Assembly: GCF_016616425.1 (NCBI RefSeq)
Contig: NZ_CP067101.1
Coordinates: forward strand, 5,270,001 to 5,334,000
Length of the DNA: 64,000 nt
Source: Bradyrhizobium diazoefficiens
Lineage (GTDB): Bacteria > Pseudomonadota > Alphaproteobacteria > Rhizobiales > Xanthobacteraceae
Direction of reading: 5' to 3'
Below the pieces are notes generated by a model that was not told where the DNA came from, made no database searches, and saw only the letters and a program-made list of their open reading frames with translations. Positions 19,329 to 54,228 of this stretch are shown piece by piece (position 1 is the stretch's first letter; each line of letters begins with the position of its first letter). A program made the translations under genes and the position numbers.

Positions 19329-22300
19329 ATGGCGAACACTCCGAAAAAGGTCAAAGACCCCACAGAAGTTGCGCTTTCTGCGATCCAGGAAGCCCTGAAC
19401 ATCAGCGACACGGCTGCGGACACCAGTCGCAACGCCTCGATGCGCAACGAAAGCGCGCCTCCGGTGGCATCGCCGGCGTCCCCGAGCTTCGACGAGCCGA
19501 GCTTCGAGCCGCGCCCTGCCGCCAACGAACGGGCGAGCGTGTTCGACCCGGTCGAGGAGCCGCGCTCTTCGCGTCGTGCCGCCAATGATGACCGCGAGAC
19601 CATCGGCCAGCTGCTCCAGGCGCTTCAGAAGGGCCGCCCTGCCCGCAGCGTCTACACCTTCGCCACCATCTTCGCCGGCGTCTGGCTCGCGGCCTGCGCC
19701 GCGCTGACATTCGGCTTCCTGCCCTCGATCCAGGCCGCCATGGGCCAGAGCGGCGGCGTGCTCGTCATCGCCGGCCTGATCGCGATGTTCTTCGCGCCGA
19801 TCATGCTGTTCTACTTCCTCGCCAGCCTGGTCTGGCGCGGCCAGGAAATGCGCATGATCGCGCAGGCGATGGCGCAGGTCGCGATCCGCTTCTCAGAGCC
19901 GGAGGACTCGGCCTCCGATTCCGTGGTCACCGTCGGCCAGGCCATCCGCCGCGAGGTTGCGGCGATGGGCGACGGCATCGAACGCGCGATCGCACGCGCC
20001 GGCGAGCTCGAGACGCTGGTCGCCAACGAGGTCGCCGCGCTCGAACGCGCCTATTCCGACAACGAAGTGCGCATCCGCGCCCTGCTCCAGGACATCGCGC
20101 ACCAGCGCGACAATCTGGTCGGCCAGGCCGAGCAGGTCCGCAGCGCCATCTCCGGCGTGCAGATCGATTTGCGCCACGACATCGCGCTGATCTCGGACGC
20201 GATCGCCTCGCGCGTCGACGAAGTCGCCAAGTCCATCACCGGCGCGCTGGAAGAGCGCGGCGCCCACATCACCAGCGCGCTGAGCAATGCCGGCGACAAC
20301 ATGATCCTGGCGCTGGGCGAGCGCGGCGGCGACCTGCTCGACCGCCTCGAGGAAGCCAGCAATGAGACCACGCGCGCCGTGCTCGACGCCAGCGAGCGGC
20401 TGACCACGAGCCTCAACTTCAAGACCGGCCACGTCCACGACGAGTTCGTCGACCTCGCCGACCGCGTCCACGAGATGCTGAACGAGCGCATCGACCGCAT
20501 CACCGGTGAATTCGAGCAGCGCTCCGCCGCAATCGTCGACGGCATCTCCGAGCGCACCGAGCAGGTGCACGACAGCCTGAAGAATTCCTCGGACTCGCTG
20601 CTGCTCGAGCTCGAGCTGCGCTCCAACGACCTTTCCGCCAAGATCGACGACGCCGGCAACCGGCTCGCCGGCCAGATCATGACGAGCGGCGACAAGGCGA
20701 GCGAGGCGCTCGACGCCACCGTCAACACCCTCGTCGCCAAGGTCGTCAGCCAGACCGAGACCGCGCACGACTCGCTGTCGCTGCAGATGAGCGCGTTCGA
20801 CGAGCTGGTCAGGAACCAGGGCACCGAGCTGGTCGAGAGGTTCGCCCGCGACTCCGGCACGCTGGGCGCCCTGATCACGCGCCATATCTCCGAGTTCGAC
20901 CGCACCGTGAAGACCTTCGGCGGCGAGATCGTCGAGCGCATGGGCCAGCGCACGCAGGACATCCATGAGTCGCTGAAGAGCTATGTCGACAATTTCGACA
21001 CCCGCTTCACCGCGAACGGCGGCGAGATCACGGCCGCGCTCGACCAGCGCCTGCTGCAGTTCGAGACCACGATCGGCGAGCGCGTCACCAACTTCGACGC
21101 CTCGTTGAACGGCAAGATCGCCGGCCTCGACAGCACCATTGAAGGCCACATCAAGACCTTCGACGAGCAGCTCGGCGGCCGCGTCACCGCACTCGAACGG
21201 TCGTTCGACACCCGCGCCAAATCCATGACCGACACCATCGACGAGCGCCTCAACACGCTCGCCTCGTCGCTGACCGACGGTGCCGCGCAGGCGATCCAGT
21301 CGGTCGACTCCCGCCTCACCCACCTCACGACATCGCTGACCGGCGGCGCATCGCAGGCCATCGAGACCATCGATGCGCGCCTCAACCACCTCACGAGCAC
21401 CCTGACCGATGGCGCGTCGCAGACCATCCAGTCGATCGACACCCGCCTGACCCATCTCACGACGACGCTCACCGGCGGTGCATCGCAGGCGCTCGAATCG
21501 ATCGACACCCGCCTCACCTATCTGACCACCGCGGTCACGAACGGCGCATCGCAGGCCGTGCAGTCGATCGACACGCGCCTGACCCTCCTGACCTCGACCC
21601 TCACGGACGGCACCGCTCAGGCAATCGAGGCGGTCGATCGCCGCATCACCGGCGTCACCGAGATCATCGACGGCCGCAGCACGCATCTGACCGACACGGT
21701 CACGGCGCGCTTCCAGGACATCCAGCAGGCCATCGAGACCAAGGTCGGCGCGGTCGCCAGCGACATCGACGTGCGCGTGGCGCAGTTCGAGGACCTGCTC
21801 GGCTCTCGCGTCGAGGCCGTCGCCGGCCGCATCGAAAGCAGCGGCCGCCAGGCCAGCGAGGACATGATGTCCCGCGCCGAGATGATCTCGACCGCGATCC
21901 GCTCGCATGTCGAGGACGCCGAGCGCTCGCTCACCAACCTCGTCGTCAACACCAGCGAGACGATCCAGACCGGGGCACGCACCGCCCAGCAGTCGCTGAT
22001 GACGGTCTCCTCCGACGTCAACGCCCAGCTCAAGATGACCTCCGCCGAGGTCGAGCGTGCGCTGACCGCCGCCGGCACCGGTTCTGCGAACTCGATCCTG
22101 AGCAGCGCCCGCGAGGCGCAGTCGACGCTGGTTGCAGCGTCTGGCGAAGCCTCCAGCCAGATCAAGGGGCTCGCGGCCGACGTCGAGCGCACGCTGTCCG
22201 CGGCAGGCGCGGCCACCGCAGCTTCGATCCTCGCCGGCGCCCGCGAGGTACAGACCACCCTCGTCACGACGTCCTCGGACGCGGCCAACCACGTCAAGAC

Positions 22301-25040
22301 GCTCACCGCGGACGTGCAGCGCTCGCTCACGATGGCCGGCACGACCACGGCGGAATCGATCACCGCCGGCGCCCGCGATGCGCAGAGCGCGCTGGTCGCG
22401 GCCTCGACCGAGACCGCCAACCAGATCAAGGCGCTGTCCTCCGACGTGCAGCGCTCGCTCACGATGGCCGGCACCTCGACGGCCGAGACCATCATGAGCG
22501 GCGCCCGCGAAGCCCAGAGCACGCTGGTCACGGCATCTTCGGATGCGGCGAGCCAGGTCAAGTCGCTCGCGGCCGACGTGCATCGTTCGCTCTCGCAGGT
22601 CGGCCAGTCGACCGCCGAGACGATCACCACCAGCGCTCGCGACGCCCAGAGCACCCTGCTCGCGGTTTCGGCCGAACAGACCAGCCAGGTCCGTTCGCTC
22701 GCAGCCGAGATGCAACGCGCGCTGGCAACCGCCGGCGGGGCCACCATCGAGGCGCTCACCAGCGGCGTGCGCGAGGCGCAAGGTACGCTGATCTCCGCTT
22801 CGACCGACGCGGCGAGCCAGATCAAGTCGCTGACCACGGACATCGAGCGCACGCTGACCGCGGTCGGCGCCGACACCGCCTCGACCATCCTCAACAGCGC
22901 GCGCGAGGCCCAGACCTCGCTGACCTCGACCTCGGCGGACGCCGCGAGCCAGATCCGCACGATCTCGACCGAGATCGAGCGCACGCTGAGCGCGGCCGCC
23001 GCAAACGCGACCAACGACATCCAGACCAGCGCGCTCAACGCCCAGAACGCGCTGATATCGGCCTCCAACGAGGCGAGCTCGCGGGTCAAGTCGAGCTCGT
23101 CCGACGTCGAACGTTCGGTGCTCGCCGCCAGCAGCAGCTTCGGCCAGGCCATGACCGGCAAGACCGACGAGATCGTCACCTACGTGCAGCAGCAGGCCGA
23201 CCGTCTGTCGAACATGATCGACGCCAAGCGCGGCGCGCTGGTGGATGCGATCGGCTCGAAGACCAGCCAGCTCACGCTCGACATCGACCGCGTCACCTCG
23301 GACGCACTGAAGTCGATCGAGACGCGCGGCCACGCCTTCTCGCAGACCATGATGGGCAACGGCTCGGAAGTCGCCCGCACCATCAACGCGGCGAGCGAGA
23401 TCGCCACCGGCGCGGTCGGCAAGTCGCTCAAGGACCTCGAGCAGGCCTCGCGCGCGGCGATCGACCAGTCCCGCCAGGTCTCGATCGCGGCCGTCACCGA
23501 GATGCAGGAGACCAGCAAGATCCTGCGTACCGACACGGTGGCACTGTTCGAGCGCCTGCGCGAAGGCAACATCCTGCTTCAGGAGGTGCTGACCGGTGCG
23601 CACGACAACCTCAACTCGCTCGAGCGGGCGCTCGTGACGCGCGTTGCCGACTTCGTCTCGGCGATGAACGACGTCACTTCGCGCAACGGCGCGGCGACGC
23701 AGAACCTGGAAGACCAGCTCAACGTCTTCAACAGCAAGACCACGAGGGCGCTCCAGGATCTCGGCGAGCTGTCGACCCAGTTCGACGCGCACGGCAAGGC
23801 GCTGGTCGAGGCCGCCCAGGTCGTCGAGCAGAGCAACAAGAACACCACCGCCTCGCTCGCCGAGCGCAAGCAGGCGCTGGAATCGCTCGTCACCACGATC
23901 GACCTGCGCACGGCCGATCTCGATCAGCGCCTGTCGCGCTTCACCGGCCTGCTCGATGAATCGCTGGCGGCCGCCGAAGAGCGCGCCCGCGACATCGCCC
24001 GCGTCGTCGCCGAGACCGCCGGGGCAGGCTCCGCCGCGATCACCCGCCAGTTCGAGGCGGTGCGCGCGGCATCCGAGGAGGAGCACCGGCAGACCATCGA
24101 GGCCATGCACGACATCTACCGCCAGACCACCGACGAGGCGGATACGATGTTCAAGCAGTCGACCGAGAAGTTCTCGAGCCTCGTCTCCAGCATGAAGCAG
24201 ATGGCTTTCGAGATGCACAACGAGCTCGAAGCCACCCGCAACGAGCTGCGCCGCGGCGTGCTGGAGATGCCGCAGGAGGCCGCCGAGAGCACTGCGCAGA
24301 TGCGCAAGGTGATCGTCGACCAGATCGAGGCCCTCGCCGAACTCAACCGCATCGTGGCCCAGCATGGCCGCGGCCTCGACGTCACCACGACGGGCCGAGC
24401 GTCCGTCGCCGTGCAGCGCCAGGAGGAGCCGATCATGGCAGCCGCGGGCGGTCGTGGTGCCGAGACCCGCATGCGCGACACCGGCAGCGCGTCAACGCTG
24501 CCGCCGCCGGACCTCGGCATGCCGGCCGCGCGCCGCACCGAAGCGCCGCCGGTCGCGCCTGCGAGCAACGACCAGGGACGTGACGGCTGGCTATCGGACC
24601 TGCTCAACCGGACGGACGCCAATCAGGGCGCCCCGACCGGCCGCGAGGCTCCCCGTGGCCGCGCCGCACCCGCGCCGCAGCCGCAGGCCCCGCAGGGCAA
24701 CGGCAATCCGCTGGAATCGCTGTCGCTCGACATCGGGCGGCTGATGGACCGCAACCTCGCCGCCGAGATGTGGGACCGCTACCAGCGCGGCGAGAACAAG
24801 GCCTTCACCAAGCGCCTCTACACGCCCGCCGGCCAGAAGGCCTTTGACGAGGTCGCCCGCAAGTACCGCGCCGACCGCAACTTCAAGGGCACGGTCGACC
24901 GCTACGTCGCCGAGTTCGAGCGCCTGCTCGACGAAGTCGCCCGCGACGGCCGCGGCCCGCAGGAGCTGCGCAGTCACCTGACCTCGGAGACCGGTCTGGT
25001 GTACACGCTGCTGGCGCATGCGGCGGGACGGCTGGGGTGA
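19329..25040 (+). CDS. Giant membrane-anchored coiled-coil protein, growth-pole-ring (GPR)-like
   Basis: 1903 residues. Residues 1-100 are polar and disordered; two membrane spans lie at about 108-130 and 143-168. From about 170 to 1650 the protein is almost continuous helix with apolipoprotein A1/A4/E-like periodicity, including six 22-residue repeats (648-779) and eight 44-residue repeats (899-1250). A Pro/Ala-rich linker (about 1690-1770) leads to a conserved C-terminal domain (LSLDIGRLMDRNLAAEMWD, then GLVYTLLAHAAGRLG). Size, membrane anchor and repeats resemble the Agrobacterium growth pole ring protein that organises polar growth in Hyphomicrobiales. That link is from memory of the family. 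The codon pattern looks like that of its neighbours. Confidence 0.85.
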   Translation: MANTPKKVKDPTEVALSAIQEALNISDTAADTSRNASMRNESAPPVASPASPSFDEPSFEPRPAANERASVFDPVEEPRSSRRAANDDRETIGQLLQALQKGRPARSVYTFATIFAGVWLAACAALTFGFLPSIQAAMGQSGGVLVIAGLIAMFFAPIMLFYFLASLVWRGQEMRMIAQAMAQVAIRFSEPEDSASDSVVTVGQAIRREVAAMGDGIERAIARAGELETLVANEVAALERAYSDNEVRIRALLQDIAHQRDNLVGQAEQVRSAISGVQIDLRHDIALISDAIASRVDEVAKSITGALEERGAHITSALSNAGDNMILALGERGGDLLDRLEEASNETTRAVLDASERLTTSLNFKTGHVHDEFVDLADRVHEMLNERIDRITGEFEQRSAAIVDGISERTEQVHDSLKNSSDSLLLELELRSNDLSAKIDDAGNRLAGQIMTSGDKASEALDATVNTLVAKVVSQTETAHDSLSLQMSAFDELVRNQGTELVERFARDSGTLGALITRHISEFDRTVKTFGGEIVERMGQRTQDIHESLKSYVDNFDTRFTANGGEITAALDQRLLQFETTIGERVTNFDASLNGKIAGLDSTIEGHIKTFDEQLGGRVTALERSFDTRAKSMTDTIDERLNTLASSLTDGAAQAIQSVDSRLTHLTTSLTGGASQAIETIDARLNHLTSTLTDGASQTIQSIDTRLTHLTTTLTGGASQALESIDTRLTYLTTAVTNGASQAVQSIDTRLTLLTSTLTDGTAQAIEAVDRRITGVTEIIDGRSTHLTDTVTARFQDIQQAIETKVGAVASDIDVRVAQFEDLLGSRVEAVAGRIESSGRQASEDMMSRAEMISTAIRSHVEDAERSLTNLVVNTSETIQTGARTAQQSLMTVSSDVNAQLKMTSAEVERALTAAGTGSANSILSSAREAQSTLVAASGEASSQIKGLAADVERTLSAAGAATAASILAGAREVQTTLVTTSSDAANHVKTLTADVQRSLTMAGTTTAESITAGARDAQSALVAASTETANQIKALSSDVQRSLTMAGTSTAETIMSGAREAQSTLVTASSDAASQVKSLAADVHRSLSQVGQSTAETITTSARDAQSTLLAVSAEQTSQVRSLAAEMQRALATAGGATIEALTSGVREAQGTLISASTDAASQIKSLTTDIERTLTAVGADTASTILNSAREAQTSLTSTSADAASQIRTISTEIERTLSAAAANATNDIQTSALNAQNALISASNEASSRVKSSSSDVERSVLAASSSFGQAMTGKTDEIVTYVQQQADRLSNMIDAKRGALVDAIGSKTSQLTLDIDRVTSDALKSIETRGHAFSQTMMGNGSEVARTINAASEIATGAVGKSLKDLEQASRAAIDQSRQVSIAAVTEMQETSKILRTDTVALFERLREGNILLQEVLTGAHDNLNSLERALVTRVADFVSAMNDVTSRNGAATQNLEDQLNVFNSKTTRALQDLGELSTQFDAHGKALVEAAQVVEQSNKNTTASLAERKQALESLVTTIDLRTADLDQRLSRFTGLLDESLAAAEERARDIARVVAETAGAGSAAITRQFEAVRAASEEEHRQTIEAMHDIYRQTTDEADTMFKQSTEKFSSLVSSMKQMAFEMHNELEATRNELRRGVLEMPQEAAESTAQMRKVIVDQIEALAELNRIVAQHGRGLDVTTTGRASVAVQRQEEPIMAAAGGRGAETRMRDTGSASTLPPPDLGMPAARRTEAPPVAPASNDQGRDGWLSDLLNRTDANQGAPTGREAPRGRAAPAPQPQAPQGNGNPLESLSLDIGRLMDRNLAAEMWDRYQRGENKAFTKRLYTPAGQKAFDEVARKYRADRNFKGTVDRYVAEFERLLDEVARDGRGPQELRSHLTSETGLVYTLLAHAAGRLG
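21270..21665 (+). repeat. Six tandem 66-bp units (22-residue repeats) in the coiled-coil gene
   Basis: Consecutive in-frame units of the form LT-D/G-GASQ-A/T-I-x-SIDTRL-T-x-LTTT, each 22 residues (for example LTDGASQTIQSIDTRLTHL). Two helical 11-mers per unit give a regular amphipathic helix. The units differ at synonymous sites, so this is an old expansion. Confidence 0.9.
22023..23078 (+). repeat. Eight tandem 132-bp units (44-residue repeats) in the coiled-coil gene
   Basis: Units begin SQIK-x-L-x-x-DVERTL, pass through TA-x-x-I-x-x-GAREAQ-S/T-LV, and end SSDAA, each exactly 44 residues without gaps. 44 is twice the 22-residue period of the upstream block. A ninth, degraded unit follows. 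The units are diverged, not recent duplicates. Confidence 0.9.
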
Positions 25041-25071
25041 ACTCGCGAACAGCGAGTGGCGAATAGCGAAT

Positions 25072-25101
25072 AAAAACGGAGGCCTCGCGGCCTCCGTTTT
25101 T
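25072..25101. terminator. Strong bidirectional terminator after the coiled-coil gene
   Basis: A 13-bp perfect stem, AAAAACGGAGGCC (25072-25084) with GGCCTCCGTTTTT (25089-25101), around the loop TCGC. It ends in T5 on the plus strand and equally on the minus strand. It begins 31 bases after the stop at 25040. Confidence 0.95.
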
Positions 25102-25154
25102 GTTTCAGCTCGTCATTCCAATAGCGAGCAGGAACGTGCGCAGATCAATCCATC

Positions 25155-25287
25155 CCGTCACCCTGAGGCGCCGGAGCGAAGCGGAGGCCTCGAAGGGCGA
25201 CAGCCCGGCTGCATCTCGACCGTTCATCCTTCGAAGCGCTCTATGCGCGCGCTGCGTCGCATAGCTCGCAGGATCTCAGGATGACGG
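25155..25287. repeat. Palindromic element without gene (family D)
   Basis: Outer ends CCGTCACCCTGAG and CTCAGGATGACGG are inverted copies with one mismatch; inner ends are GGCCTCGAAGG on the left and CATCCTTCGAAG on the right. The centre between the inner ends is only about 25 bases. It matches, half by half, the two pieces that flank the GIY-YIG gene at 25433. Confidence 0.85.
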
Positions 25288-25366
25288 AATATGAGCGAGG
25301 CTCGCGTTAGAACCAAAGAGTTGATCAACACCCTGAGTTGTGAATTTTACATTGACAGCGCACAAG

Positions 25367-25828
25367 CCGGCATCATCCTGAGCTGCGAGCACGGTGCGCG
25401 GCATCGCACGGCGAGCCTCCGAGGACAATTGGGTGGGCATCTATATTTACATGCTGAGATGTGCGGACGGCTCCTTCTACATCGGGAGCGCCACCGGTGA
25501 GGACACCTCCAAGCGTGTCGATGAGCACAACGCCGGGGCTCATCCGGGATATACCTACTCGCGGCGGCCGGTCGTGCTCGTTTGGTCCGAATATTTCGAT
25601 CGGATCACCGATGGGATCGCTGCCGAACGACAGCTCAAAGGCTGGAGCCGCGCCAAGAAAGAGGCGCTTATCCGTTCGGATTGGAAAGCAGTAAGCCAGC
25701 TTGCGCGACGGCGCGCTGGAGCGACGAAGCCCAGAACATAGACTCCGCGGCGGCAGACGGGCCGAGCATCCTTCGAGGCTTGGCCCGCGCTGCTGCGCAT
25801 CGCTGGCCGCGCACCTCAGGATGACGGG
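25367..25828 (+). mobile_element. Palindromic element split by a GIY-YIG nuclease gene (putative mobile repeat)
   Basis: Left half 25367-25425 (CATCATCCTGAGC...GCCTCCGAGGA) and right half 25762-25828 (GCATCCTTCGAGGC...CCTCAGGATGACGGG) correspond to the left and right arms of the intact element at 25155. The nuclease gene replaces the centre. The inner end of the left arm (GAGGA, 25421-25425) is the ribosome site of the gene, so repeat and gene form one unit. Interpretation as a mobile or formerly mobile unit is inference. Confidence 0.5.
25433..25741 (+). CDS. GIY-YIG nuclease domain protein
   Basis: 102 residues from the GTG at 25433, which has GAGGA seven bases upstream; an ATG at 25394 would start inside the repeat arm and has no site. 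The domain opens GIYIYMLRCADGSFYIGSATG, giving the two Tyr/Gly strands of the GIY-YIG fold, then SKRVDEHNAG (Arg of the active site) and the metal-binding Glu in AAERQLKGWSRAKKEAL. Small single-domain members (YhbQ/UPF0213-like) are widespread and often multicopy in rhizobia, with no settled role. It is likely a structure- or site-specific DNA nuclease. Confidence 0.85.
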   Translation: MGIYIYMLRCADGSFYIGSATGEDTSKRVDEHNAGAHPGYTYSRRPVVLVWSEYFDRITDGIAAERQLKGWSRAKKEALIRSDWKAVSQLARRRAGATKPRT

Positions 25829-25865
25829 AGCATCAGCGAATGCGAAGGGTCAACCCCACCCCCTT

Positions 25866-26738
25866 CTACCGCCTGCCGCTTGCGGCGGGCACCGGCCTCG
25901 GCGGCTCGGGCGGCGGGGCCGGCTGCGATGAGCTGCTGGCGCCGAACAGCACGCGGGTCGGGTTGCGGTCGAAATTGTTCACGGCGCGGCTGATGTCGCC
26001 GAGGGTGCGGCGGCCGTCGCTCATCAGCGCACCGGAGCGCTTGTCGAAATCGTCGGCAAGCTCACGGATCGACTTCACCGTCTGGAACAGCTCGCCGCCG
26101 TCCTTGCCGCCGGCAAGCGTGTTGAGGCCGAGCATGAGACTGTCGGCCTTGAGCATGACGCCGTCGACCTTGGCCATCACCCCGTCGATCTTCTCGGAAT
26201 TGCGCGCCAGCGAGGTGGTGAAGGTCTCCAGATTCTTCAGCGAGTTCTTCACCGATTCCTGATTGTCGGCGACGATCTTGTTGATGTTCTGCAGCGTGCC
26301 GCGGATCGCCTCGGTGACGTCCTGCAGCTTGTTGGGATCGGCGGTCAGCGTCGGAATGCCGTCCTGGTCGAGCGGCGGCGGGGGCGCGGCCTCGTCGCCG
26401 CCCTTGAGCGAAATTGCGGCGACGCCGGTGAGGCCCTGGAATTCGAGGCCGACCAGGGTGTCCTTGCGGATCGGGGCGTTGTTCTCGATCATGGCGAGTG
26501 CGACAACCCGCCGCGGGTTGTCGAGCTTCACCGAGACCACCTCGCCCACCCTGATACCGTTGAAATTGACGCTGCCGCCATTGCGCAGGCCCGCCGCCGG
26601 ACCCTCGAACACGACGCGCAGGGGGCTGCGCTGCTTGATGGTGTGCAGCGACTGGAACCACAGCACGAAGCCGATCGCCGCAGCGATCACCGCCAGCGTG
26701 AACGATCCGATCAGGACGTAATTCGCCCGCGTTTCCAT
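25866..26738 (-). CDS. MlaD/MCE-domain lipid transport protein
   Basis: 290 residues with an N-terminal membrane anchor (YVLIGSFTLAVIAAAIGFVLWF), then the MCE domain (LRNGGSVNFNGIRVGEVVSV, LVGLEFQGLTGVAAISL). A long helical region (about 130-250) and a proline-rich tail follow. MCE proteins form hexameric tunnels that carry phospholipids across the periplasm between the membranes. It is the third gene of an Mla-type operon, 42 bases after the ATPase; the gap has a 13-bp tandem repeat. No auxiliary lipoprotein or MlaC gene follows: the nuclease-bearing repeat starts 37 bases after the stop. Confidence 0.9.
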   Translation of the reverse strand: METRANYVLIGSFTLAVIAAAIGFVLWFQSLHTIKQRSPLRVVFEGPAAGLRNGGSVNFNGIRVGEVVSVKLDNPRRVVALAMIENNAPIRKDTLVGLEFQGLTGVAAISLKGGDEAAPPPPLDQDGIPTLTADPNKLQDVTEAIRGTLQNINKIVADNQESVKNSLKNLETFTTSLARNSEKIDGVMAKVDGVMLKADSLMLGLNTLAGGKDGGELFQTVKSIRELADDFDKRSGALMSDGRRTLGDISRAVNNFDRNPTRVLFGASSSSQPAPPPEPPRPVPAASGRR

Positions 26739-26780
26739 CAGGTGCTCCGGCTATTCATCCCAGCTACTCAACCCAGCCAC

Positions 26781-27551
26781 TCAACCCATGACCGCGCGGG
26801 CGCGCTTGCCATGGAAATACTGCCTCAGCCAGGGATGCTGCGAGGCCTGCATGTCGGCGATCGACCCTGCCGCAATGATCTTACCGTTCCCTAAAACGGC
26901 GATACGGTCACATGCGGTGTAAAGGCTGTCGAGATCGTGGGTTACCATGAAAACCGTCAGCCCCAAAGTGCGCTGGAGCGTCCTGACCAGTTCGTCGAAA
27001 TCGCCGGCGCCGATCGGATCGAGGCCCGAGGTCGGCTCGTCCAGGAAGACGAGGTCCGGATCGAGCGACAACGCGCGCGCCAGCGCCACCCGCTTGATCA
27101 TGCCGCCCGAGAGCTCGGACGGGAAGCGCTCGGCGACCTCGGGCTTGAGACCGACCATGGCGAGCTTGGCGATCGTGATCTCATCCATCAGCCGCTGCGA
27201 GACCCGCAGATATTCGCGCATCGGAAACTGGATGTTCTGCCGCACGGTCAGCGAGGAGAACAGCGCGCCCTGCTGAAACAGCACGCCCCAGCGCCGCTCC
27301 ACGTTGCGGCGCTGCGAGGTGTTCGAGGAATCCAGATCGACGCCGAACACCTCGATGGAGCCTGCGAGCTTCGGCACGAGGCCGATGATGGTGCGCGTCA
27401 GCACCGACTTGCCCGCGCCGGAAGGACCGACGAAGCCGAGGATCTCGCCGCGCTTGACATCGAGGTTGAGGCCGTCGAGCACGCGCGTTGCGCCGAACTG
27501 CACGGTGATGTCGCGGACGCGGATGATGGGATTCTGGATCTGGCCTGCCAT
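26781..27551 (-). CDS. MlaF-type ABC transporter ATP-binding protein
   Basis: 256 residues from ATG 27551, directly after the permease stop. Walker A is GFVGPSGAGKSVL, the ABC signature is LSGGMIKRVALARAL, Walker B is DLVFLDEPTSGLDP and the switch His is in VTHDLDSL. The C-terminus carries the short extension typical of MlaF. It energises retrograde or anterograde phospholipid transport with the STAS-permease and MCE proteins encoded beside it, at the inner membrane. Confidence 0.93.
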   Translation of the reverse strand: MAGQIQNPIIRVRDITVQFGATRVLDGLNLDVKRGEILGFVGPSGAGKSVLTRTIIGLVPKLAGSIEVFGVDLDSSNTSQRRNVERRWGVLFQQGALFSSLTVRQNIQFPMREYLRVSQRLMDEITIAKLAMVGLKPEVAERFPSELSGGMIKRVALARALSLDPDLVFLDEPTSGLDPIGAGDFDELVRTLQRTLGLTVFMVTHDLDSLYTACDRIAVLGNGKIIAAGSIADMQASQHPWLRQYFHGKRARAVMG

Positions 27552-54005: not shown

Positions 54006-54087
54006 GCGGACTCTTCTAGTGGCTTATCGGGCAGCCGATAAGGCTTTGAAGTCCGATGTGATCAAAAAAGACGGTTGTTCGGCTCTT

Positions 54088-54220
54088 CACCTCTCCCGAA
54101 GGGAGAGGTCGGATCGCATCGAACGATGCGATCCGGGTGAGGGGTTATAGTCCCACCGAGTGCCGCGGCCCCTCACCCGGATCGCTGCGCAATCCGACCT
54201 CTCCCCGCTGGGGAGAGGTG
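54088..54220. repeat. Long palindromic repeat, family A copy 3
   Basis: CACCTCTCCCGAAGGGAGAGGTC on the left, GGATCGCATC...GATGCGATCC and GGGTGAGGGG...CCCCTCACCCGGATCG in the middle, and CTGGGGAGAGGTG at the right end, as at 13301 and 36147. It lies 8 bases after the aminotransferase stop and may end that transcript. Confidence 0.9.
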
Positions 54221-54228
54221 AAACAAGA

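Follow-up and report, generated by a model that had tools for sequence, protein, structure and literature searches.

A standalone GIY-YIG nuclease gene set between CGTC-tagged REPs in Bradyrhizobium: a candidate dedicated enzyme for its own repeat family

In Bradyrhizobium diazoefficiens a gene for a small standalone GIY-YIG nuclease has a unit of a dispersed palindromic repeat on either side, and next to it stands a dimer of the same repeat that carries no gene. We propose, with a probability of roughly 0.55, that this nuclease is the dedicated enzyme of its own family of CGTC-tagged REPs, which it would cleave and help to spread, and that it resembles a RAYT in its working without being one. 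A wider reading, to which we give slightly less than even odds, is that standalone GIY-YIG nucleases are the missing enzymes of CGTC REPs in several phyla. They would then represent a second, transposase-free route by which REPs are made and spread, in which a hydrolytic hairpin or cruciform nuclease, set within its own repeat and evolving together with the stem of that repeat, cuts the ends and host repair joins them.

REPs are common bacterial genome repeats; if they do have a GIY-YIG partner, a single small protein and an oligonucleotide hairpin would be enough for a test. Such a partner would give a likely substrate to many proteins annotated as 'GIY-YIG nuclease family protein' (the nuclease described here has 5218 relatives at E <= 1e-5), and would mean that two unrelated enzyme superfamilies have converged on one arrangement with palindromic repeats.

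The nuclease locus and its kin in the same genome

The window is the whole stretch of DNA that was analysed, 64,000 nt in length. The features of the nuclease locus, in window coordinates, are the following.

19329..25040, + strand: left neighbour gene, 1903 aa, used for reading the orthologous site
25069..25104, no strand assigned: terminator-like hairpin 3' of the 1903-aa gene, also found in relatives, outside the element
25155..25287, no strand assigned: gene-less dimer of family-A CGTC REPs (plain palindrome), recognised by sequence; the family is shared with the intact dimers L008, L018 and L020
25352..25357, + strand: TTGACA, a -35-like box 5' of the left REP that recurs at other clade-A sites; possible promoter element
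25371..25425, + strand: 5' (left) REP of the nuclease unit, worn, with CATC instead of CGTC and a decayed stem
25421..25425, + strand: GAGGA, putative ribosome-binding site closing the left REP on its 3' side; intact relatives have GAAGGA
25433..25741, + strand: standalone GIY-YIG nuclease of the UPF0213/prokaryotic Slx1-like kind, 102 aa; GTG start at 25433, stop at 25739-25741
25762..25828, + strand: 3' (right) REP, with the GACG tag outermost
25866..26738, - strand: right neighbour gene, MlaD-like and presumably mlaD, used for reading the orthologous site

The nuclease gene matches the Pfam GIY-YIG profile PF01541 with an E-value of 5.6e-14 (52.6 bits, against a cut-off of 22.6). The 13-mer CTCAGGATGACGG is present in the gene-less dimer (25275-25287) and in the right REP (25815-25827), and has 19 copies in the 7.14 Mb genome, against none for the same letters reversed. 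The coordinates, the profile match and the 19 core copies thus confirm the proposal of an earlier note on this DNA, that a nuclease gene is enclosed by two units of a dispersed palindromic repeat, with a gene-less dimer alongside. The note would have given up that proposal had the repeat not recurred elsewhere, which the same copies show that it does. The two arms are 93% complementary across 15 nt (25373-25387 with 25810-25824), and the GAGGA that the note had placed at the inner end of the left arm is found there, ending 7 nt ahead of the nuclease GTG.

An intact family-A repeat consists of CCGTCATCCTGAGG, a variable hairpin, CCTCGAAGGATG and a short spacer with CGGCC..GGCC, after which the unit follows inverted. 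By eye, the right half of the dimer spacer (..GGCCGTNCATCC; GGGCCG) is retained 3' of the nuclease, the left half is absent 5' of it, and the nuclease gene appears to replace the spacer. The note had described the second element as the same two arms with a replaced centre; in the window copy, the left arm has lost both tag and fold. The left-arm tag has changed from CGTC to CATC and its fold is no better than that of shuffled sequences (z +1.33). The fold z is -1.35 for the right arm and -1.92 for the plain dimer at 25155-25287, for which 9 of 200 shuffles are equally good. The nuclease unit of the window is a worn copy. Rfam has no family within window positions 24000-27000.

A sister nuclease copy, 93% identical to that of the window, lies at G000:C1:3104398-3104694. 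Both of its REP units are strong (fold z -6.2 and -4.0), and an intact gene-less dimer in the same genome has a fold z of -7.1. At the sister locus (L002:1397-1990) a third REP and about 25 nt of adjoining sequence come close to a direct repeat of the REP beyond the nuclease. Recombination between the two would remove the nuclease and leave a single REP, as in other species; the near-repeated REP itself could come from duplication or gene conversion.

The PF01541 profile identifies seven genes in this genome, six small ones and one frame of 693 aa, which from its length we take to be UvrC. By eye, five of the six small genes adjoin palindromic repeats of four families and the sixth does not. 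Two lie in family A (ATCCTGAGG), one is flanked by two dimers of a ATTGCGAGC..GCAATCCAG repeat, one lies in a GTCGTCCCTGCG..CGCAGGGACCCATA repeat (family B) and one in a TGTCCCGGACGCG.. repeat. Four repeat families beside five genes perhaps represent a pattern rather than one element. In the blind flank-to-flank arm test described below, which has a cut-off of 15, L004 (28) and L005 (39) pass, and the window locus (L001, 13), the sister locus (L002, 14), L003 (14) and L006 (9) fail. Whether all GIY-YIG copies are flanked by arms, a check that the note had suggested, is therefore answered in the negative by both counts. Since the scores of the window and sister loci are below 15 and within the range of the best controls, the assignment of these two loci rests on family resemblance.

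Arms, tags and unit layout across loci

For the arm test, the 300 nt upstream of each nuclease match were aligned to the reverse complement of the 300 nt downstream, and scores of at least 15 were counted as arms. Arms were found in 87 of 113 small GIY-YIG loci, against 5 of 312 other ORFs of the same loci used as a gene-centred control; the 26 loci without them include the four failing loci of this genome. Within Bradyrhizobium, 27 of 34 loci pass (L043 was omitted because its sequence is incomplete), against none of 136 control windows, the best of which scores 14. In the set of named genomes, 60 of 79 loci pass, against 4 of 888 control windows; these loci come from a scan with a five-sequence alignment and are the best 80 of 503 relatives, less L104, which is incomplete. 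The rows outside Bradyrhizobium (L087 and L089-L134 without L104, L117 and L125; L091 and L092 are nearly the same in sequence) pass in 27 of 44 cases. In two further clades of the genus, whose loci were picked among the matches listed and tested with 350-nt flanks, arms are present at 9 of 14 A' loci and 24 of 25 B' loci, together 33 of 39. Because of this picking, and because the best 80 of 503 are heavy in Alphaproteobacteria, the fractions are not a census.

The window and gene-centred controls rule out chance or a hotspot as the origin of the arms, and the note's own counter-proposal, that arms would be found beside the gene only as often as by chance, is at odds with the 87 of 113 loci against 5 of 312 ORFs. 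Arms are at control level (7 to 10) in L006, L051, L054, L089, L102, L112, L115, L120, L121, L128, L131 and L133, and the other sub-threshold loci score 11 to 14. It is possible that small genes with control-level arms are domesticated or unrelated forms.

Most of the arms are CGTC/TGTC-tagged REPs. The tag stands at the arm end in 73 of the 87 arm pairs, against about 22% under random placement, and GTAG in none of the 87. Described by its direction in the arms rather than by the head and tail of the 2013 paper cited below, it is oriented outward in 58 tagged pairs and inward in 15. The automatic test is negative in 14 of the 87 pairs, some of which have a tag further out (L065, L099) or CCTC (L052, L053). 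The arms of clade A' carry the CCTC variant, and by eye several repeat families have CCA-like tails.

The CGTC REP superfamily has been described as mostly alphaproteobacterial, with TGTC and CCTC variants, CCA tails and an 8-9 bp stem starting AT, and as occurring in dimers that are mostly head-to-head (Di Nocera et al. 2013, PMC3733652). Bradyrhizobium is among its carriers, and Neisseria dRS3 and Rickettsia RPE are counted as CGTC repeats (PMC3733652). The repeats described here share with it the tag and the alphaproteobacterial weight, appear similar to it in stem, CCA-like tail and dimers, and have in the A' arms a match to its CCTC variant. They differ in the enzyme partner that we propose: as published, CGTC REPs are apparently without a dedicated transposase, and 'GIY' is absent from the available part of the paper (PMC3733652).

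Copies of the repeats are also found elsewhere in the genomes concerned. In 14 genomes from other genera CGTCAYCCCGG has 12 to 253 copies and the reversed pattern 0 to 7, with 253 against 3 in the genome of L130. Where the locus is without arms, the counts are 12 against 4 (L097), 18 against 3 (L089) and 45 against 0 (L121). The pattern YGTCATTCCNGC occurs 88 times against 3 reversed in a Rickettsiales genome (L087), 28 against 1 in a Syntrophaceae genome and 20 against 0 in a Dehalococcoidia genome, all three with arms at the locus, and 6 to 11 times against 0 to 4 in the genomes of the armless L112, L120 and L102. The genomes of L123 and L108 are repeat-rich (104 against 0 and 50 against 1) and their arms score 11, so unflanked genes do exist in repeat-rich genomes.

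The layout of the unit was compared across 25 clade-A loci. In 20 of them the end of a REP, with the motif ..AAGGA, lies 6-12 nt ahead of the start, mostly at 7 nt (up to 16 nt tested), which fits a candidate ribosome site. No REP end stands just 5' of the start in the remaining five (L042, L044, L045, L048, and L046, whose match begins within the gene). A TTGACN or TTAACN box is found within 150 nt in 21 of the 25 loci; where a REP tag is found as well (18 loci), the box begins 19 nt ahead of it in 17. The window TTGACA has the same spacing, and the conserved unit thus exceeds the arms. Of the 18 pairs in the 5' REP consensus fold, 4 show double changes; with a covariation term of +0.25 kcal/mol, we claim no covariation support for it. 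The clade-A nuclease gene is under purifying selection, with a median dN/dS of 0.062 (21 genes, 100 pairs; 3 of 24 excluded for an internal stop). The clade-A matches with an internal stop (L041, L047, L049) have 5' REPs without the inner hairpin.

Pairing of nuclease clades with REP families

Each Bradyrhizobium nuclease clade has its own REP family. Among the 50 Bradyrhizobium loci with arms of at least 15 and a readable tag, 17 of 18 clade-A nucleases lie in A arms and 30 of 30 clade-B nucleases in B arms; the other two loci belong to neither clade.

The pairing extends to copy number. Out of 117 Bradyrhizobium genomes, 26 have a clade-A nuclease (at least 70% identity, including three with an internal stop) and at least 38 have a clade-B nuclease (at least 75% identity, partial genes included, among the matches listed); since many of these are draft genomes, an apparent absence may be a gap. 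The median number of exact repeat-A cores is 39 in genomes with the clade-A nuclease and 3 in those without (AUC 0.852, p 2.3e-8), and for clade B, with hosts taken among the matches listed, the medians of repeat-B cores are 39 and 4 (AUC 0.817, p 1.3e-8). The cross pairs are flat: 0.512 (p 0.42) for the clade-A nuclease with repeat B, and 0.534 (p 0.27) for the clade-B nuclease, with hosts again among the matches listed, with repeat A. Kinship was handled by a two-way division of the genus on MlaD identity. Both groups retain the specific pairs (AUC 0.82 and 0.88; 0.81 and 0.92), which to that extent argues against species phylogeny as the source of the correlation, with one cross pair, the clade-A nuclease with repeat B, weakly positive in one group (AUC 0.693, p 0.029) and the other cross pairs at 0.457 to 0.547.

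Across species of the genus the repeat-A count varies from 0 to 155. At least 20 repeat-A cores are present in 16 of 91 genomes without the clade-A nuclease, and at least 20 repeat-B cores in 19 of 79 without the clade-B nuclease by the matches listed. Thus, either the repeats persist in these many non-hosts or another enzyme serves them.

Within B' (25 loci), the stems are of the types CCGGCGAA..CCGG (11 loci), CTGGCGAA..CCAGG (11) and CGCCCGGCTTGACCGGGCG (three). For the first two types, protein distance is 0.172 inside a type and 0.306 across types, a difference reached in 0 of 5000 permutations (22 loci), and the CTGG stem type corresponds to one clade of the B' protein tree. The stem types thus track the protein tree, and the palindrome alters on both sides along with the protein. 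Taken over 72 loci, the distance between proteins correlates with that between their arms (r 0.707, 0 of 2000 permutations). After dereplication to one locus per 70%-identity cluster (N=18) the correlation is gone (r 0.083, 535 of 2000), so the protein-arm link is seen within and between close clades, and deep co-divergence across phyla is unsupported.

These results bear on the idea that a small mobile nuclease gene simply lands in REPs as safe or preferred targets, the REPs owing nothing to the nuclease. REPs have been reported as IS targets (PMC1525189) and nuclease units do occupy several sites. Random landing would hardly produce like framing in 20 of 25 clade-A loci at different sites, a stem kept by each clade even within B', or a copy number of the nuclease's own repeat that can be predicted from its presence, and we consider this explanation very unlikely.

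A different enzyme might spread the repeats. RAYT-type genes (PF01797) were sought in 21 genomes, and are present in 3 of the 13 Bradyrhizobium genomes searched, including one gene in the genome studied here. None was found in G004 (136 exact repeat-A cores), G010 (104) or G002 (47). The fetched flanks of seven PF01797 loci contain no exact A or B core, and a loose CGTC-like pattern is found near three of them (L195, L198, L199). A RAYT as partner of these repeats is unsupported by either the search or the flanks. If a HUH (Y1) transposase spread these REPs as with GTAG REPs, with the GIY-YIG gene incidental, the likeness of REP dimers in both superfamilies (PMC3733652) would be expected, and the PF01797 gene of this genome and the loose patterns could be accommodated. 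The repeat-A-rich genomes in which PF01797 was not found, the coreless flanks, and the 2013 survey, which in its available part reports no tyrosine transposase gene flanked by CGTC REPs (PMC3733652), make that explanation scarcely credible to us.

In G006 and G007, the PF01797 genes (L198 and L199, respectively, both among the loci just named) lie between inverted arms starting CGTAGG, which resemble GTAG-type REPs, the kind that RAYT genes would be expected to have. A GTAG REP/RAYT and a CGTC REP/GIY-YIG kind may coexist in one genus.

Sites, enzyme and known systems

Host genomes contain 1-3 nuclease matches at E <= 1e-20. The 26 clade-A loci occupy 10 sites and the 34 clade-B loci 5 sites, and from these shared sites vertical inheritance of the nuclease is likely. 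With so few matches and sites, a high-copy transposon is unsupported; the nuclease looks low-copy and mostly stationary rather than a busy transposon. RAYT genes, too, occur in few copies and mostly stay where they are.

Of the 30 relatives fetched for the window site, 19 were readable. The nuclease is present in two (this genome and G107), and by eye and tblastn 17 relatives are without it (one of these, L146, is itself a doubtful match), so that empty orthologous sites, which the note had suggested looking for, do exist. Among the 17, L163 has a family-A dimer alone and the others have different REP families or none. The REP family in this gap, which separates the 1903-aa gene from the MlaD-like gene (window 25041-25865, L135-L164), varies by species, which indicates a recurrent REP site. 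A second site was matched in 59 of 60 genomes, and 27 of 30 fetched loci were read: the nuclease is present in 5 (tblastn agrees), a single family-A REP in 10 (some degraded), no REP in 10 and other REP families in 2, by eye. These states are scattered across the local gene tree, a pattern that old presence with repeated loss fits as well as gain does. Presence and absence at the two orthologous sites show that REPs and nuclease come and go. Inverted arms, as in classical IS and MITEs, are present; inspection of the second site by eye revealed neither a target duplication nor a clean insertion boundary, and conservation extends beyond the arm. The few matches and sites, and the even balance of gain and loss at the second site, leave the note's term 'autonomous element' unsupported as stated.

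The small number of sites, the scattered second-site states, the REP-rich genomes without nuclease and the worn window copy would all agree with a formerly mobile REP-nuclease pair that is now inherited vertically, its REPs serving as terminators or RNA stabilisers and its nuclease recruited elsewhere. Such a relic would not be expected to show repeat-A counts that range so widely within one genus and track nuclease presence, or several copies with intact stems, and we judge it very improbable.

The nuclease has the domain and the catalytic residues of the GIY-YIG superfamily: Y6, Y16, R28 and H32 are invariant and E65 is present in at least 90% of 51 sequences. Pfam detects no further domain beyond PF01541. 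The AlphaFold2 model built from the 51 sequences has a mean pLDDT of 91 and a pTM of 0.78. Its nearest solved folds are the UPF0213 proteins 1ZG2 and 1YWL (E below 0.001), followed by the branched-DNA nucleases Slx1 and At-HIGLE (E 0.05-0.1, probability 0.98-1.00). By its predicted fold the nuclease belongs with the UPF0213/prokaryotic Slx1-like cluster of standalone domains, closest to BH0048/EF2693, and it is like 1YWL and 1ZG2 in domain, length and fold. Those two were solved as hypothetical proteins and predicted to be repair enzymes, with no repeat association reported in the available descriptions.

GIY-YIG enzymes hydrolyse DNA and keep no covalent link, so joining would need other enzymes. 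With a GIY-YIG instead of a HUH-Y1 enzyme, the chemistry must differ from that of RAYTs: TnpA-REP enzymes cut single-stranded REP through a covalent tyrosine link (PMC8266576). The GIY-YIG enzyme ANKLE1 introduces a single-strand nick into a cruciform (PMC10287932).

As a dedicated REP enzyme, the nuclease would be expressed from the 5' REP, which carries the ribosome site and might allow autoregulation. It would recognise the REP hairpin or cruciform through tag and stem, and would nick the REP much as Slx1-type enzymes nick branched DNA. Host replication and repair could then copy the nicked or released REP or insert it at another place. In the long run, gene-less REP dimers would build up as a population that depends in trans on one nuclease gene or a handful of them; these genes would mostly stay put and be kept by selection.

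Several of the same observations, namely purifying selection, few sites per clade, the Slx1-like fold and a ribosome site within the 5' REP, would suit a nuclease that spreads nothing. It would process replication-borne REP hairpins or cruciforms as a repair function that preserves the stability of REP-rich genomes, with the arms as sensors for autoregulation. The 2006 superfamily survey groups the standalone prokaryotic forms with Slx1 and predicts a role in break repair for them; its section on these forms does not mention repeats (PMC1564403). A repair role would not require a gene nested in the repeat across successive clades, nor one enzyme per REP family in one genome (five genes, four families, by eye), and the cognate enzyme is absent from many REP-rich genomes. 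We regard this alternative as unlikely, if worth keeping in mind.

The closest known systems are the REP/RAYT (TnpA-REP) REPtrons, related to IS200/IS605. Shared with them are a gene in low copy number between palindromic repeats of its own, numerous dimers without a gene, enzyme-specific repeat families and a tetranucleotide tag at one end. The enzyme here, in which PF01541 is the only domain found, is GIY-YIG, without the HUH motif and catalytic tyrosine of HUH-Y1, and the tags are CGTC/TGTC/CCTC, unlike the GTAG of RAYT systems. The note's comparison to REP/RAYT logic therefore holds up: the nuclease lies in a REP pair, gene-less dimers are dispersed, and a GIY-YIG enzyme takes the place of the HUH transposase. 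Like GIY-YIG homing endonucleases of the I-TevI type, the nuclease is encoded within its own DNA element; unlike them it has no extra Pfam domain, no Rfam intron nearby and many different sites.

The note had known of no described element of this design, and our search agrees: among the matches listed in the open-access literature, preprints excluded, no paper linking GIY-YIG enzymes to REPs was found. A term search of the main text of the 2025 RepRanger REP survey (PMC12306157) gave no nuclease, RAYT or GIY, and in PMC9465073 GIY-YIG and RayT appear, in the part available, as separate lines of a gene list. Br-REP1 and Br-REP2 are likewise REPs of Bradyrhizobium, described in 3' UTRs; endonuclease, excinuclease and RAYT are absent as whole words from the main text of that paper (PMC5082802). 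Elsewhere in the window, at 54086-54222, there is a palindromic pair of CTCTCCCGAAGGGAGAGGTCGG and its inverted form with 71-93 nt between them, whose family differs from the REPs at the nuclease locus.
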